Source of the DNA: Candidatus Bathyarchaeia archaeon
GTDB lineage: Archaea > Thermoproteota > Bathyarchaeia > Bathyarchaeales > Bathycorpusculaceae
Direction of reading: 5' to 3'
Assembly: GCA_041447175.1 (NCBI GenBank)
Contig: CP166960.1
Coordinates: forward strand, 293,118-357,117
DNA length: 64,000 nt
Shown here: positions 36,185-47,026 of the stretch, one piece after another
Layout: every line of letters begins with the position of its first letter
Position numbering within the stretch: position 1 is the stretch's first letter
Made by a program: the position numbers and the translations under genes
The notes under the pieces: generated by a model
Databases searched by the model: none
What the model was told of the DNA's origin: nothing
What the model saw: the letters and a program-made list of their open reading frames with translations, nothing else

Positions 36185-38722
36185 GTGAGAACCAAACTTA
36201 ATGTGAAACAATCAAAACCTAAAAGAGAGTGGTTTAAAACATTTTCTGCCGTTGCTTTGCTTTTGCTGTTGACTGTTTCTGGATTGATGGCTACACTCCC
36301 CGTTTCTTCTGCACAGACTGCTGAATCACCAATACCCACCAATGCCTACCTCGCAGTTTCGCCCAACCCCGTCGGTGTCAATCAAGACGTAACCTTCCTG
36401 ATGTGGCTAGTCCAGATTGAACCAACAGCCATGGGCACCGCAGGTGGAAGATGGGATGGCTACACTTTGCAAATTTCAAAGCCGGACGGAACCGAGCAGG
36501 CACTCGGGCCCTTCACTGCTGATGATGCTTCCTACGCGCATGCAATCTACACTCCCGACACACTTGGCACATACACAATAACCTTTAACTTCCCTGGGCA
36601 ACACGTCTCTGGCGTCGGCATGGGCGGCCCAGTTGACAGCTACTACGGAGCCAGCAGCTTCACCGTCACCCTCACAGTGCAACAAGAAGCCGTAACAACT
36701 ACACCTCAAACTCCAATTCCAACTGGCTACTGGACGCGACCAATAAACGCTCAAAACCAAGAATGGTACACGATTTCAGGTAACTGGTTTGGAATCGGCG
36801 CAGGCTCATTTGGTCTTAGCATGTACAATGCAAGTGGCAACTTCAATCCATACACCACCGTTCCTGACACTGCACACGTTGTGTGGACCAAGCCACTAGT
36901 GTTTGGGGGCTTAATTGGGGGTGAATTTGGAGGCACTGCAACAAGCAACTACTACAACGGAAAATCGTACGAACCCGCTTTCGGTCCCCCAGTAATCATC
37001 AACGGTGTACTTTACTACAATGACCCCGCCACCCCCAGACAAGGCTTTTACGCGGTAGATTTGCGCACAGGCGAAACACTATGGCATCAAGAAAGCGCCG
37101 TCGGCATCACCAATGGGCAGATTTACAATTTCATGTCCCCAAACCAACAAGGCGGTGTCCCCTACCTATGGTACATGAGCGGCGATCCATGGTACATGTA
37201 CGATGCAGTAACTGGCAACTTGATACTGAAAATCGAAAACATAACAACTGGCACCACCGCACCAATGACTTCAGGCAGCACAGTTCAAGGACCCAACGGT
37301 GAACTGCTCGTCTACGTGATGGACTCAACCGATAACTGGATAGCAATGTGGAACTCATCCTTATGCATACTCAATTCAGGCGACATCACCGCAATGTCAC
37401 CCTGGATGTGGCGACCTCCAGCTGGGGCAACAATTAACTGGGAAAACGGCGTGCAGTGGAATGTGACGATACCTTCGTATCCAAACCAAGCAATTATGCG
37501 CATTAATTCAGGCGTCATATTAGCCATCACAGGCTCAATTAGCGCAGGAAACAACTGGCAAATGGAAATCGGCTACGACATGAACACGGGGCAAAAACTC
37601 TGGGCTGAAAACCGCACAACTTTCCCTGGAGCAACCATCTGGGGTCTAATGGGGCCAATAGCAAACGGAGTTTACACAGAGTTCCATTCCGATACAATGC
37701 AGTGGTACGGATTTGACGTGTACACTGGCCAGCAAATTTGGGGCCCCTCCGACGCCTACACCAACGCTTGGGGATCCATGGCTATGAACGATGTCTTCTC
37801 CGAAAGCGCTTATGGTATCCTTTACGGGTTTTCCATTGACGGCATACACGCACTGGATCTCATGACGGGTGATAGCTTGTGGACCTTCTACGGTGAACCT
37901 TCTGGCGCCGATTTCCCAGGCTACAGCACTCTGCCTTTCGAAACTAACATGCTCTTCACAGTTGCTGGCGGAAAAGTCATCGCCACCACAGGCGACTCTC
38001 ACGGTGTTCCGTTGTATCGCGGAGCCAAAATGTACGTTGTTGACGCTTATTCAGGAAATGAGGTTTGGAGCATAAACGGCTGCTTTGAGCAATCACTGCC
38101 TGTCGCAGACGGTTTCCTAGTAGGGTTCAACTTGTATGACAACATGCTTTACTGCTTTGGCAAAGGGCAAACAGAAACCACAGTTTCAGCGCCAAGTACC
38201 GCCGTGCCTAAAGGAACACCCGTACTAATACAAGGCTCAGTAACCGACCAGTCCACAGGGGAGACCTGCCTTGGAATTCCAACCGCAGGAACACCTGCCG
38301 TCTCTGATGATTGCATGACCGCTTGGATGGAGTACCTCTACATGCAGCAGCCAAAACCCAACGACGTGACTGGCGTTTCAGTGCATCTGACTGCTATTGA
38401 TTCAACGGGGCGGACCCAAGACATTGGCTCAGTGGTGACTGACGAAAAGGGGAACTTTATGACTTCTTGGACACCCTCCGCAGAAGGGTTGTACAAAATC
38501 GTAGCTGACTTCGACGGAACAAAATCATACTACAGCTCCGACGCCGAAACCGGTTTAGTGGTTTCAAATGCGGCAGCAACCGCAGCCGCTTCACCTTCGC
38601 CAAGCATGGCAGTTCAACCTCCAACCAGCAGCACACCAACAACAACCTACATCGCAATCGGCGCAGTAGCAGTGATCATCGTTGTAGTCGCGTTAGCGGT
38701 GTTGCTTAGACGACGAAAATAA
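36185..38722 (+). CDS. Giant secreted PQQ-like propeller protein with Ig-like ends
   Basis: The protein has 845 aa; start GTG set by AGGAGAGA about eight bases upstream. Signal peptide (about 18-42); Ig-like N-domain with NPVGVNQDVTF and KPDGT..LGPF (about 50-160); PTGYWTRPINAQNQEW linker; seven- or eight-blade propeller with YAVDLRTGETLW-type motifs (about 190-660); C-terminal Ig-like domain with VYMQQPKP and LYKIVADFDG (about 665-800); Pro/Ser linker; membrane helix; LLRRRK. It lacks the PEF motif of other surface proteins here. Close paralogue of 52943. Confidence 0.85.
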   Translation: MRTKLNVKQSKPKREWFKTFSAVALLLLLTVSGLMATLPVSSAQTAESPIPTNAYLAVSPNPVGVNQDVTFLMWLVQIEPTAMGTAGGRWDGYTLQISKPDGTEQALGPFTADDASYAHAIYTPDTLGTYTITFNFPGQHVSGVGMGGPVDSYYGASSFTVTLTVQQEAVTTTPQTPIPTGYWTRPINAQNQEWYTISGNWFGIGAGSFGLSMYNASGNFNPYTTVPDTAHVVWTKPLVFGGLIGGEFGGTATSNYYNGKSYEPAFGPPVIINGVLYYNDPATPRQGFYAVDLRTGETLWHQESAVGITNGQIYNFMSPNQQGGVPYLWYMSGDPWYMYDAVTGNLILKIENITTGTTAPMTSGSTVQGPNGELLVYVMDSTDNWIAMWNSSLCILNSGDITAMSPWMWRPPAGATINWENGVQWNVTIPSYPNQAIMRINSGVILAITGSISAGNNWQMEIGYDMNTGQKLWAENRTTFPGATIWGLMGPIANGVYTEFHSDTMQWYGFDVYTGQQIWGPSDAYTNAWGSMAMNDVFSESAYGILYGFSIDGIHALDLMTGDSLWTFYGEPSGADFPGYSTLPFETNMLFTVAGGKVIATTGDSHGVPLYRGAKMYVVDAYSGNEVWSINGCFEQSLPVADGFLVGFNLYDNMLYCFGKGQTETTVSAPSTAVPKGTPVLIQGSVTDQSTGETCLGIPTAGTPAVSDDCMTAWMEYLYMQQPKPNDVTGVSVHLTAIDSTGRTQDIGSVVTDEKGNFMTSWTPSAEGLYKIVADFDGTKSYYSSDAETGLVVSNAAATAAASPSPSMAVQPPTSSTPTTTYIAIGAVAVIIVVVALAVLLRRRK

Positions 38723-42533: not shown

Positions 42534-42576
42534 GCCATCAGACAGCTTTTCCTGAGGCTACAAGTTTGGAGAGGTT

Positions 42577-42670
42577 GGGTTTGCTGGGGCTCTGGAACGG
42601 AACATTCTAGGAGAGAAAAGTTGAAGACCCAACGAGCAAAGTTGGAAATCAACCTCCAAAGCCCACTCAG
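42577..42670 (+). ncRNA. Structured RNA-like element, copy 1
   Basis: Closing stem GGGTTT (42577-42582) pairs with AAGCCC (42659-42664). Hairpin GGAA-CGGAACA-TTCT (42594-42608). Stem GTTGA (42620-42624) / TCAAC (42649-42653) encloses the constant hairpin CCAAC-GAGCAAA-GTTGG (42629-42645). Single-stranded GCTGGGG and TAGGAGAGAAA are shared with copy 2. All wobble pairs are G-U only on the + strand. A T-run follows at 42690-42696. Confidence 0.6.
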
Positions 42671-42797
42671 GCTAATTTGGCGCTCAAAATTTTTTCCATA
42701 AAAAAGGAAGATTGAGGTTGTTGCTGTGCGTAGTCACAAAAGTTAATGATAAACCATCGGCCTCTGTGGCCTCTGTGTTACTGAGAGGTGATTTTGT

Positions 42798-43091
42798 TTG
42801 TTGTTTATGGTGACTTTGGTTCATCCTCAGGAGTTGTGTTTTGGCAAAAAAGAATACAATGAGGAGGGTAAACGGTGGTTCAATGGCATGAAGGCTTCAG
42901 CGGAAAAGTACGGCGTGAAAGTACATGGCGCTTGGGTCTGTCCAATAGAGCATGTTTTCTACATTATGTTGGAATCAGACGATTTCAAAGCGGTTTCAGG
43001 TTTTCTAAGCCCGCCAATGTTGACACATCATAAAGGGAAAATTTCGCCGCTTATTACTTGGGAAGAAGCCTACGAAGCAGTAAAACCATAA
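42798..43091 (+). CDS. Small ferredoxin-fold-like protein of unknown function
   Basis: The protein has 97 aa from TTG 42798, with GAGGTGA about six bases upstream; ATG 42807 is also possible. The pattern MVTLVHPQELC..., WFNGMKASAEKYGVKVHGAWVCPIEHVFYIMLESDDF resembles small alpha-beta dimeric barrels (GYD/DUF3303-like). Function unknown. It lies between the two structured elements. Confidence 0.55.
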   Translation: MLFMVTLVHPQELCFGKKEYNEEGKRWFNGMKASAEKYGVKVHGAWVCPIEHVFYIMLESDDFKAVSGFLSPPMLTHHKGKISPLITWEEAYEAVKP

Positions 43092-43141
43092 CTAAAAAGA
43101 AACGCTCGCAAAACCTGACCTCGCAGAGAATTTATTGTGGA

Positions 43142-43238
43142 GGGTTTGCTGGGGTTCTGGAGACGGAAATCTTAGGAGAGAAAGAAAAGGAGAAACCAAC
43201 GAGCAAAGTTGGAATCATCTTCTCCAAAACCCACTCAG
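43142..43238 (+). ncRNA. Structured RNA-like element, copy 2
   Basis: Closing stem GGGTTT (43142-43147) / AAACCC (43227-43232). Hairpin GAGA-CGGAAA-TCTT (43160-43173). Stem GGAGAA (43189-43194) / TTCTCC (43220-43225), different in sequence from copy 1 but still paired, encloses the same CCAAC-GAGCAAA-GTTGG (43196-43212). The conserved loop bases CGGAA and GAGCAAA, and the ACTCAG after the closing stem, are the same in both copies. Confidence 0.6.
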
Positions 43239-43284
43239 CCCCATTTGTTCGCCAATATTGAAGAAAAAAGGAAAAGGGGTGTTT

Positions 43285-46011
43285 TTATTTGCGTTTTCTA
43301 AGGAGCAACATTGCGACTGCAACGACTGCGATGACAATTACGATGCCTATTGCTACGTAGAGCGTTGTGTCAGGTGAGGAAACTGTTGGTTCTGGCGTCG
43401 GCGTCTCTGTTGGCTGGGGTGAAGGAGTTGCGGTGGAGGTTGGTTTGGCGGTTGGTGCAGGTGTTTGTGTGGGGGTTTCGGTTGGCGTGGATGTAGCTAC
43501 TGGTTCGGGTGTCGGAGTTGGGGTTTCGGTTGGCGTTGGTGTCGAAGTGGGCTCAGGTGATTGTTCCGTCGTAGCTGCCGTCATCAAACGTTCATCGCCG
43601 AAGCAGTATAAGTTCCAGTCGTAGCATCCGATGTACAGGAAACCGTTGTATGGTGTTGGTGCTGAGTGTGTCTGGCTCCCGAATTGGTCATAGTATGAAA
43701 GTTTGGCGCCTGTTTGGGCGTCTAGAACATATATCATTCGTGCTTCGTTAACGGTGTATATTCGACCATACGAGTAGGTCAGGCTCTGGGCAAGGTTCTC
43801 ACGATTTAAATATGTGTGCCAGAGGCGCGTTCCGTCCGTTGCGTTAAGACAGCTTACTCCGTAGTAATCATTTAGGTAGACTTTGCCGTATTTGCATATC
43901 ATGCTGCCCATTTGTGCCGCGCCGTTTGCTTGTTGTGGAGTTGATGGATTGTTCAATGCTTGATATGTCCATACTGTTGCGCCTGTTGAAGCGTTTAATG
44001 CATAGTTTAATCGGTATCCGTCACGTACAAACAGCAAATTTAAGTCAGGTGCCAGTGTCGGCGATGCCACTAGATACGGTCCAACTAAGGTGTAGTATGC
44101 TATGGTCGCATTCCAGATAATGTTTCCAGTTGCTGCTTCTAAGCAGTAAGCGCTGCCGTTTGGTTGAGTGCTTGAAGTTATGTAAACCGCGTTGTTGTAG
44201 ACAACAGGTGTTGCGAGTATGGATGCGCCTGTTTGGAACTTCCAACTAACTGCTCCGCTGTTGGCATCTATGCAATACAAATTGCCATCAAGTGCGCCCA
44301 CGTAAACCTTGTTTCCAACTACCACTGGAGAGCTTCGGAAGTCACTGCCGCCAAGTTGACTATTTGTTATGTTGCCCGCGTCCGTCTGCCAGATTTTGGT
44401 ACCTGTAGCAGCATTGAGGCAGTAAACGCTTCCATCGTCAGCTCCTGTATAAAGCATGCCGTTAACCACTGCTGGTGAAGACTTAACAGCGAAGTTTGTT
44501 TTGAACGCCCAAAGTTTACTACCAGTAGCCGCGTCTATAGCATAGATGTTTTTGTCAAAGCATCCAAAATAGCATATTCCGTTATCTAAGGTCGGATTTG
44601 ACACGATTGCGGCGCCTGCTTCAAATTTCCAGTTGAGCTTCAAATCTGTTGGTCCAGCGCCTTCAGCAGAATGTGCAGAATCTGATAGGAACATGGACCA
44701 ATCGTTAACTTGGCTACTTATGCACCATAATTCGCCAACAGTTAGGTCGTAGGAATATGTGTATTCTCCAGTTGGATTTGTTGGAACTGAAGTTGGGACC
44801 ACATAGAGGTTGCCATATGCGATGCACTGGTAATTCATGGGGTCGTCGTTTTGCATTGGAAGAGACCAGATAAGCTGCCCTGTGAAAGCATCATAACAGT
44901 TGAATTCGTCGTGACCATATTCTCCTGTAGCGGGGTCTCGGTAAACACTAGAACCCATCTCACAATAGACCTTGCCATCAGCAATAGAAAGAATACCCGA
45001 GTATCCAACGCCTGGTCCTTTTTGTCGCCAAATTAATTCACCCGTAGACGCGTTAACTGCGTATAAATATGCATCTTGGTTGTGCTCGTAGACTATCCCG
45101 TACGCGTAAGCTGTTGAAGAAGCCCACATGTTGTAGAATGAATGAGGGTTATAGGTCCAAAGTAGTTCACCATTGGTTGCGTTCCAAGCACGCATGTTAC
45201 CGTCGAGACCACCATGAAAGACTCTGCCTTCAGCGTAAGACATACCGTATATGAAATTGTTTACAGTCGTCGGTGTTTCCCATAGTAAATCTCCAGTCTT
45301 TGCATCACGACATCTTAAGAATGCATCAGAGCCGCCTATGAACACTTTTCCGTCACCGTAAACAGCATAACCCGAACCAATATCCACCTCACTTGCTACG
45401 CTCCATGCGAGTGTAGGGGGCTGAGAGGGGTCAGGAAGATTCCAGCCTGCGGTTGCATCGACGAACATTTTTAGTTCTGGAACGTAGCCAGCGCCGTTGA
45501 AAATCAGATATGGCACGCTAAAGCCTCGGGATCCAACCCAGACTACTGAGCCGTCGGAAATCTTGACGCATGTGTTGTAGATTACCATGTAGTTATCGTC
45601 GATTTTGGACATGCCAATACCCCAACCATATCTGAAAAGGTCACCGCCAACATTGTTCCGCCATACGACCTCGCCAGTTGTGCCGTTGATAGCTACGGTT
45701 CCGTCGCTGACAGCAGCAAATACTAATCCATTAAAAGCCACTAAGGGGCCTCTTATCCCAGGTACTGCACTCTTCCATTGTATTCCCGGTGAGCTTGGAG
45801 CGGGACCTGCACTGTAAAAAGAGCCGGTATTTGAACCACGAGCGGTTGGCCATTCATACTGAAGCAAGTTACTGTTTTCTGTTGAATTGGTGGTTTGTGT
45901 GTCGGCAGCTGCAATTGAAAAATTTGGGGTGACAGCAAAAGCTAAAGAAGCGATCAGCAAACATAGTGTAATTACCAAAGCTTTTTTCCGTATAGATTCA
46001 ATTTTTGTCAA
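43285..46011 (-). CDS. Giant secreted PQQ-like propeller protein, tail-anchored
   Basis: The protein has 908 aa from TTG 46011, preceded by GGAGA; the frame upstream to 46104 lies in the promoter. Signal peptide (about 5-35). Two propellers in a row: one at about 60-445 with a DWSMFLSDSAHSAEG linker, and one at about 470-830 (IYAIDAATGSKLW, SSPAVV, VYCLNAATGTKIW). Then a Thr/Pro repeat stalk (TPTPTETPTPTPEP-like), membrane helix and LLRKRK end. No PEF motif. Divergent from the TrmB gene. Confidence 0.85.
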   Translation of the reverse strand: MTKIESIRKKALVITLCLLIASLAFAVTPNFSIAAADTQTTNSTENSNLLQYEWPTARGSNTGSFYSAGPAPSSPGIQWKSAVPGIRGPLVAFNGLVFAAVSDGTVAINGTTGEVVWRNNVGGDLFRYGWGIGMSKIDDNYMVIYNTCVKISDGSVVWVGSRGFSVPYLIFNGAGYVPELKMFVDATAGWNLPDPSQPPTLAWSVASEVDIGSGYAVYGDGKVFIGGSDAFLRCRDAKTGDLLWETPTTVNNFIYGMSYAEGRVFHGGLDGNMRAWNATNGELLWTYNPHSFYNMWASSTAYAYGIVYEHNQDAYLYAVNASTGELIWRQKGPGVGYSGILSIADGKVYCEMGSSVYRDPATGEYGHDEFNCYDAFTGQLIWSLPMQNDDPMNYQCIAYGNLYVVPTSVPTNPTGEYTYSYDLTVGELWCISSQVNDWSMFLSDSAHSAEGAGPTDLKLNWKFEAGAAIVSNPTLDNGICYFGCFDKNIYAIDAATGSKLWAFKTNFAVKSSPAVVNGMLYTGADDGSVYCLNAATGTKIWQTDAGNITNSQLGGSDFRSSPVVVGNKVYVGALDGNLYCIDANSGAVSWKFQTGASILATPVVYNNAVYITSSTQPNGSAYCLEAATGNIIWNATIAYYTLVGPYLVASPTLAPDLNLLFVRDGYRLNYALNASTGATVWTYQALNNPSTPQQANGAAQMGSMICKYGKVYLNDYYGVSCLNATDGTRLWHTYLNRENLAQSLTYSYGRIYTVNEARMIYVLDAQTGAKLSYYDQFGSQTHSAPTPYNGFLYIGCYDWNLYCFGDERLMTAATTEQSPEPTSTPTPTETPTPTPEPVATSTPTETPTQTPAPTAKPTSTATPSPQPTETPTPEPTVSSPDTTLYVAIGIVIVIAVVAVAMLLLRKRK

Positions 46012-46143
46012 ATTTTTCTCTCCGTTTTCATTTCTTTTAGGTAGCAAAAAGTAGCTCATGAAAACTTTATAAAAAATTGTAAGAAAAAGTTTTTCATACC
46101 ACACAATTGTTGTATAAAATTCACAAATTTCTTATAAACAACT

Positions 46144-46225: not shown

Positions 46226-47026
46226 ATGGAGAGAGAAAACACATCGGAAGATACTGCTGAAACGTTAGTTGATTTAGGGTTAACACCCGTACAGGCCAAG
46301 ATTCTTCTTGCTCTCAAAAGGTTTGATTATGCTGCTGTAAAAGAATTAGCAAACGTCACAGAACTTCACCGACAAGAGATTTACCCCGTGCTAAATGAAT
46401 TGCAACAACTCGGTTTAATCGAAAAAAAACTTGGAATACCAAACCAATACAAAGCAATGTCCTTGAGTAAAACTCTAAGAACCCTACTTGATCGTAAAAA
46501 CGCATGGATTGCTAAGTTACAAAAGACAACAACAGAATTAATCAAAACGGCAGATTTTGAAAAGGAAACAAAAACGTGCGACAGCAAAGATTATGATTTC
46601 ACATTAATCACGGGTATTGAAAGGTTTGGTCACGCATTAAAGGATTGGATAAAGACTGCACACACAATTGATGAAGTAGTTAAATACGATAGGTTTTCAT
46701 ATCAAATTGCCGAGCGCCTAAAAGCGTCATCCGAGTTTAGGTACCAGAAGGATGTAAAAATTAGGTTAGTGACTTGCACAAGAGTAGATGATGCAACAAA
46801 AGCGGAACTCAGAGAGAAAAATATTGAATTCCGCGTTGCCGAATTTGAAACTCCAGTGGATATTGCTATCTACAATGGGAAAAGAGCACATTTAGCCATT
46901 TACTCAGACAGAAATAATATTTTGCAGACTGAGGTGGCTGCGTTAACTTCAAACAATCCATGTTTTGTCCAAATGCTCCAAAACTATTTTGACGTATTAT
47001 GGAAGCATGCAAAGATACAAAAATGA
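46226..47026 (+). CDS. TrmB family transcriptional regulator
   Basis: The protein has 266 aa. N-terminal TrmB winged helix (about 8-85: LVDLGLTPVQAKILLALKRFDYAAVKELANVTELHRQEIYPVLNELQQLGLIEKK). A coiled segment follows, then a PLD-like effector half. TrmB proteins sense sugars or redox state in archaea. It is divergent from the 43285 surface propeller gene and may control it. TATA at 46181-46190 and GAGGTGGAG about nine bases before the ATG. Confidence 0.85.
   Translation: MERENTSEDTAETLVDLGLTPVQAKILLALKRFDYAAVKELANVTELHRQEIYPVLNELQQLGLIEKKLGIPNQYKAMSLSKTLRTLLDRKNAWIAKLQKTTTELIKTADFEKETKTCDSKDYDFTLITGIERFGHALKDWIKTAHTIDEVVKYDRFSYQIAERLKASSEFRYQKDVKIRLVTCTRVDDATKAELREKNIEFRVAEFETPVDIAIYNGKRAHLAIYSDRNNILQTEVAALTSNNPCFVQMLQNYFDVLWKHAKIQK

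Follow-up and report, generated by a model that had tools for sequence, protein, structure and literature searches.

The window analysed here, a stretch of 64,000 nucleotides, belongs to a Bathyarchaeia genome (G000) that consists of one contig of 2.73 Mb. It contains two copies of a structured element, both of which had been proposed in an initial annotation and are recovered by a covariance model (Table 1). Copy 2 is intact and lies behind a gene for a PQQ/beta-propeller surface protein; the encoded protein carries a C-terminal TM anchor and a basic tail (LLRKRK), and the true start of the gene is probably the TTG at 46011, with the SD sequence GGAGAG at 46018-46023. Copy 1 is a decayed copy, in which the outer helix and the first central pair are gone (UUAG CCUG), and it is one of several degenerate copies in the genome that are not associated with a PQQ gene.

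Table 1. Features at the element locus in the window and, for comparison, the 16S rRNA processing stem of the same genome (window positions unless a genome handle is given)
Feature	Position	Strand	Remarks
Second PQQ surface-protein gene, without own element	36185..38722	+	RBS UUUAGGAGAGAG directly ahead of GTG
Copy 1, degenerate	42572..42678	-	85.9 bits; no PQQ gene ahead
Copy 2, intact, 110 nt	43137..43246	-	103.2 bits; 42-nt spacer after stop of PQQ gene 43285-46104(-)
Copy 2, outer helix h', 5' strand GGG	43240..43242	-	Pairs with CCC 43142-43144; direct reading
Copy 2, central 4-bp helix, 5' strand GCUG	43236..43239	-	Pairs with CAGC 43148-43151
Copy 2, 5' bulge AGU	43233..43235	-	Predicted EndA cut 43234|43233
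Copy 2, inner helix P2, 5' strand	43222..43232	-	Pairs with 43152-43162
Copy 2, hairpin P4 CCAAC-UUUGCUC-GUUGG	43196..43212	-	
Copy 2, unpaired linker UUUCUUUCUCUCCUAA	43172..43187	-	Complementary to PQQ and TrmB ribosome-binding sites
Copy 2, 3' bulge AAA	43145..43147	-	Predicted EndA cut 43146|43145
Copy 2, predicted excised RNA, 88 nt	43146..43233	-	From the BHB cut rule
Oligo-T tract between stop codon and copy 2	43262..43279	-	
PQQ/beta-propeller surface protein	43285..46104	-	PQQ_2, Beta-prop_ACSF4
TrmB-like regulator	46226..47026	+	Adjoins PQQ gene; RBS complementary to linkers, mean duplex -15.5 kcal/mol
16S rRNA processing-stem BHB	G000:566672-568166 flanks (L157), -103/+38		15/15 pairs Watson-Crick

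An element family behind surface-protein genes

The two copies belong to a dispersed family of elements of about 90-130 nt each, 38 of which are found in G000 by the covariance-model search. This number of copies, together with covariation above that of shuffled alignments (see below), confirms that the family is far above chance. With copy 2 as a DNA query, about 22 good copies were found in G000 and many in a sister species. Of 257 genomes from the class Bathyarchaeia, 43 contain matches to the covariance model; among 398 genomes drawn from the phylum, matches are restricted to two families (f1 and f6) of one order. Exact matches to a degenerate element pattern in 84,980 genomes amount to 54 stretches, all of them in Bathyarchaeota or related 'Crenarchaeota' bins. 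A comparison with Rfam, which the initial annotation had recommended, yields no matching family: Rfam 15 at the gathering score reports two tRNAs across the window and nothing for the element, and at E<=5 the element is without a credible match, the best sub-threshold hits being chance.

The family is tied to one type of gene. Thirty of the 38 copies in G000 are located within 150 nt downstream, and on the same strand, of one of the 46 PQQ genes (chance about 1e-78), and nearly all copies lie 28-90 nt past the PQQ-gene stop codon; the remaining 16 PQQ genes have no element. Across about 25 genomes, 79 of 80 ORFs upstream of elements fall in one protein family. The upstream genes encode secreted proteins of 800-1000 aa with PQQ/BamB-type propeller repeats, a C-terminal membrane helix and a basic tail. 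Since the PQQ paralogues have a median amino-acid identity of 38% and the element core is nearly invariant, the element is not merely carried by recent duplication.

Between the stop codon and the element lies an oligo-T tract that is likely a terminator. The same tract is found behind PQQ genes that have no element, and the element may therefore be reached only by read-through. Its position after a stop codon and beside this tract could suggest that the element itself is a transcription terminator or an insulator between adjacent genes. We give this reading only a slim chance, however, because the T tract lies ahead of the element and persists at genes without one, no T enrichment follows the element, and the constraint on its sequence is far above what a terminator needs.

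Several individual loci display additional features. The oligo-T tract often lies in the hairpin loop of a short stem (CUCCC-U-tract-GGGAG or CCCC-UUUUUUUU-GGG; for instance, L158 and L095). At L065:1951-2730 (G000:1407950-1408729), three diverged tandem copies with a spacing of about 330 bp follow one PQQ gene; the DNA in between is non-coding and the hairpins are diverged yet paired. Copies in close tandem, with a spacing of about 117 bp, also occur in a genome of the same genus (G002:C9:259005-259258). The elements at L062:3817-4010 and L071:7105-7298 (G000:2050 kb and 2441 kb) share 194 bp of downstream DNA at 96% identity and follow different genes, a PQQ gene and an ABC transporter ATPase, respectively; their common downstream DNA may stem from recombination at the element, or it may be a repeat in its own right. 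At L083:7930-8034 the element is immediately preceded by the beginning of a PQQ-like gene, ~21 codons long (MNFAKDLRKKKMYSIVALLLM), as though the rest of that gene had dropped out. At L064:5420-6970 (G000:1126.4-1128.0 kb) an element is followed, after about 110 bp, by a CRISPR-like array whose period is about 76 bp. Finally, the promoter-like boxes at the solo copies L131, L143 and L148 are suggestive, by eye only, of separate sRNA genes.

Structure, strand and basal motif of the element

The family-wide structure comprises an outer helix (GGG/CCC), a central helix (GCUG/CAGC) with a 3-nt bulge 3' of each central strand, an inner helix (GGGCUCUGG/CCAGAGCCC), a two-part hairpin (P3 and P4), and a pyrimidine-rich unpaired linker that precedes the 3' strand of the element. 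In an alignment of 121 distinct sequences, 90.9% of paired cells hold standard pairs, 22 of 25 pairs show double (compensatory) changes, and the covariation score is 0.354, compared to 0.152 +/- 0.005 for shuffled alignments and no more than 0.094 when the partners are slid. In particular, the central 4-bp helix is paired in 99% of cells in these 121 sequences. The inner helix (95.4% paired) and the outer three base pairs (92.3%) both display compensatory change, which extends to the outer pairs across the family, to nine of nine family pairs of the inner helix (P2), which change on both sides, and to five of five pairs of the P4 hairpin.

These observations bear out the earlier suggestion of a selected, undescribed structured RNA, since more than 100 further copies retain the helices through compensatory change and no Rfam family matches. 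The constant CCAAC-GAGCAAA-GTTGG hairpin and the constant linker TAGGAGAGAAA noted in the two window copies are likewise kept. The structure drawn from those two copies, however, is superseded by the family-wide one. What had been taken as a closing stem (GTTGA/TCAAC and GGAGAA/TTCTCC) is in fact the internal helix P3, which is 72-75% paired family-wide, and the true base is the longer GGGCUCUGG/CCAGAGCCC helix with its two 3-nt bulges; the proposed small hairpin (GGAA/TTCT) borrows bases from the main helix and is absent from the family consensus. We also rejected a pseudoknot between the linker and the flank before the element, since its effect is only mild where it occurs, in one clade and four f6 copies, and is absent from G000 and G006.

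The strand assignment is reversed by the family data. The non-Watson-Crick pairs of the two copies had been read as G-U on the plus strand, a call that leaned on helices only partly kept by the family. Across the whole family these pairs are 127 G-U versus 68 A-C on the strand of the PQQ gene, which is the minus strand in the window (140 versus 58 in the model alignment), and the odd pair of the main helix is U-G on the minus strand in both window copies. Minimum free energy folds of the two copies give z scores of -1.5 and -2.7 against shuffles on the minus strand; on the plus strand (-0.4 and -1.3) they are no better than shuffles. The gene association, the wobble pairs and the polarity of the bulges all point to an RNA with the same orientation as the PQQ gene, and a structured minus-strand RNA is, in our view, very probable.

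The plus strand of most copies does contain an SD-ATG-like string, as it would if the functional product were a plus-strand structured RNA or a small ORF with an AGGAG SD sequence and an ATG. That the plus strand, as the antisense of an anti-ribosome-site, itself resembles a translation start counts against the regulatory model outlined below. No reading frame is conserved across copies on the plus strand, however: the phase of the frames is random, and in two of three clades most of them contain stops, so that a small ORF was rejected. No conserved sequence was found ahead of the plus-strand element, hence no conserved promoter there, and both the wobble bias and the bulge polarity favour the minus strand. 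A functional plus strand is accordingly highly improbable. A C/D box sRNA, which would carry box C (RUGAUGA) towards its 5' end and box D (CUGA) towards its 3' end, was also rejected: by inspection, CUGA at the 5' end is not accompanied by a box C before it, and Rfam gives no match above threshold.

The dispersal of the copies, the tandem copies behind one gene in L065 and the 194 bp of 96% identical DNA downstream of two copies could also be explained by a repeat acting at the DNA level, whether MITE/REP-like or an attC-like recombination element, with a hairpin that works in DNA. Yet the placement of the element is non-random (target-site duplications were looked for by eye only), and a G-U bias on one strand, a constant position and orientation behind the genes of one family, covariation out to the outermost pair and the match to ribosome-binding sites described below are not expected of a transposon. 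Inspection of the alignment also shows that the integron attC boxes RYYYAAC / GTTRRRY are absent from the element ends, which read GGGGCTGAGT / CAGCAAACCC. We therefore regard a DNA-level repeat as very unlikely.

Of particular interest is the base of the RNA, which is probably a canonical archaeal bulge-helix-bulge (BHB), GGG-GCUG-[AGU]-helix...helix-CAGC-[AAA]-CCC, as judged by its geometry. The strict BHB of archaeal splicing endonucleases has a 4-bp helix, two 3-nt bulges and flanking helices (PMC7714728, PMC6379350, PMC4090602). The corresponding arrangement of inner helix, 4-bp centre and outer helix with 3-nt bulges is present in 136 of 155 anchored copies; each strand carries one bulge, on the 3' side of its central segment, and the flanking helices h and h' are present with compensatory change. 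The 5' bulge is AGU, AGA, AAA or AAU in 149 and the 3' bulge AAA in 144 of the 155 anchored copies, and the central helix is GCUG/CAGC or GCUG/CAGU in 104 of 111 well-fitting copies. A 3-bp centre with a 4-nt 3' bulge gives about the same pairing count, every other geometry is worse, and other 5' bulge lengths fit clearly more poorly. A 3' strand of CCU CAGC, instead of CCC CAGC, goes with a 5' strand of AGA AGG, instead of AGU GGG; the bulge stays three nucleotides long, and the first inner pair is A-U instead of G-C.

The 16S processing stem of G000 contains a BHB of the same polarity (CTCC/GGAG, bulges AAA and CAA); the scan that located it allowed G-U pairs, and 2 of 20 shuffles equalled its score, while the real match is all Watson-Crick and at the expected place. 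The genome encodes two EndA subunits; the open frames that match PF01974 have 197 and 191 codons. With a canonical BHB at the base, EndA is predicted to cut in both 3-nt bulges, and a rule placing the cut between the second and third bulge nucleotide predicts an excised RNA with a family median of 88 nt. In Haloferax, a 46-nt BHB intron in the HVO_1309 5' UTR is cut by EndA and recovered as a circle (PMC7714728).

Linker complementarity to ribosome-binding sites

The single-stranded linker UUUCUCUCCUAA is conserved and usually has a CAU upstream of it. Its sequence is complementary to the SD region of the PQQ genes, whose ribosome-binding sites (RBS) in G000 read TTAGGAGAGAAA and similar, the complement of the linker. 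When 20-nt windows of the element were scanned against the PQQ RBS, the linker region alone stood out in three clades, and in these clades the linker-RBS duplexes reach -10.7, -11.4 and -9.6 kcal/mol versus -7.4, -6.6 and -6.6 kcal/mol with shuffled sites; for the PQQ gene ahead of copy 2 the duplex reaches -17.4 kcal/mol. Of 97 elements, 76 have an anti-start CAU no more than 16 nt away from the anti-SD, where about 16 are expected. The motif GGAGAGA stands ahead of 12 of 35 PQQ genes and of 11 of 17 TrmB-like regulators, most of which adjoin PQQ genes, against 2 of 152 other ORFs (an SD-weighted rule determined the start codons, and some ORFs of the 'other' set are spurious). The match does not reflect general SD strength, since linkers bind PQQ sites better than those of GGAG-matched other genes (p 1.6e-6) and 16S anti-SD binding is no better for PQQ sites (-8.3) than for other genes (-9.2).

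In family f6, both partners have changed: the RBS contain AAGGUG or AGGAAUG (sites AAGGUGAAAA or AGGAAUGAA), and the linkers CACCUU or CAUUCCU (UUUUCACCUU or UUCAUUCCU). The f6 sites bind f6 linkers at -14.0 kcal/mol and other linkers at -10.0 to -11.3 kcal/mol; this co-change counts as one evolutionary event, and paralogues in the RBS statistics are not independent. One f6 genome (G103) showed no specific linker-RBS match. The complementarity itself is shown by these statistics, and the sequence comparisons tip the balance towards a functional pairing of the linker with the RBS.

Pairing specific to the gene's own element was rejected. The own linker is not a gene's best partner, and pairs shuffled within a genome are as good and, if anything, better. 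PQQ genes that lack the element carry the same RBS which, together with the equivalence of swapped pairs, indicates action in trans. A closed loop in cis, where the linker in the trailer pairs with the RBS of the same mRNA without excision, would account for the complementarity and for the location of the element on the gene's strand, but it is quite unlikely given the swapped pairs and the same site at element-free PQQ genes and TrmB genes, and it leaves the BHB unexplained. Alternatively, the element may serve 3'-end processing only, with EndA cutting at the BHB so that surface-protein mRNAs are trimmed or stabilised, and with no target for the RNA that is cut out. The BHB geometry and the position 28-90 nt past the stop codon fit such a role; the covarying inner hairpins and the linker match to PQQ and TrmB RBS are left unexplained, however, and we consider processing alone unlikely.

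A candidate trailer RNA regulator and its relation to known systems

The structure, the strand and the link to the PQQ genes are well supported by comparative data, and from these we infer excision, circularisation, pairing in vivo and repression as follows. The minus-strand RNA would reside in the 3' trailer of PQQ/beta-propeller surface-protein mRNAs, where cuts by EndA in the two 3-nt bulges would free an RNA of about 88 nt, probably to be closed into a circle by a ligase. The released RNA would keep the hairpin and the exposed pyrimidine-rich linker, which mirrors the SD region, and often the start codon as well, of surface-protein genes and their TrmB regulators. By pairing with those sites in trans it may lower translation, resulting in a common feedback over dozens of paralogous surface genes. 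This model as a whole, an EndA-excised and probably circular trailer RNA that acts as a trans repressor of a surface-protein/TrmB regulon, is put forward tentatively, with its chances close to evenly balanced.

If the model is true, the tRNA-splicing machinery would serve as a release switch. In archaea, the known cases of BHB splicing are tRNAs, rRNAs and a couple of mRNAs at single loci. With a multi-copy BHB family that is fixed behind one type of gene, the splicing endonuclease would become a regulator of mRNA. That these RNAs represent a new class of archaeal regulator, namely circular antisense RNAs spliced from mRNA trailers by a tRNA-splicing enzyme and controlling surface-protein paralogues and transcription factors, is possible but rather doubtful. 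Bathyarchaeia are abundant uncultured sediment archaea, and we know of no earlier RNA circuit proposed for their surface coat. The model predicts exact cut sites, the junction sequence and the target sites.

The element has nothing in common with the families of Rfam 15. Bacterial 3'-UTR-derived sRNAs, which are released from the mRNA 3' end via RNase E/Hfq, resemble it as regulatory RNAs from an mRNA 3' end; to our knowledge, no archaeal 3'-UTR-derived sRNA with BHB release is known. Bacterial sRNAs can also block the SD region. In archaea, sRNA162 of Methanosarcina mazei is described as a trans-acting sRNA (PMC3510493). The element resembles sRNA162 and the SD-blocking sRNAs in that an unpaired part of the RNA is predicted to pair with several mRNAs; it differs in that its RNA would arise from many copies behind the target genes, with EndA as the releasing enzyme. 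BHB introns and circular RNAs of archaea include those of tRNA, rRNA, Cbf5 mRNA and the Haloferax HVO_1309 5' UTR (PMC7714728, PMC2738675). The element shares with them the 4-bp helix, the two 3-nt bulges, the flanking helices and the predicted excision by EndA, and HVO_1309 provides a precedent for a BHB in a UTR that can be cut and circularised. Whereas the known mRNA cases are single loci, the element occurs in dozens of copies per genome in 3' trailers; it also differs in that its inner structure is conserved and its linker matches a set of genes.
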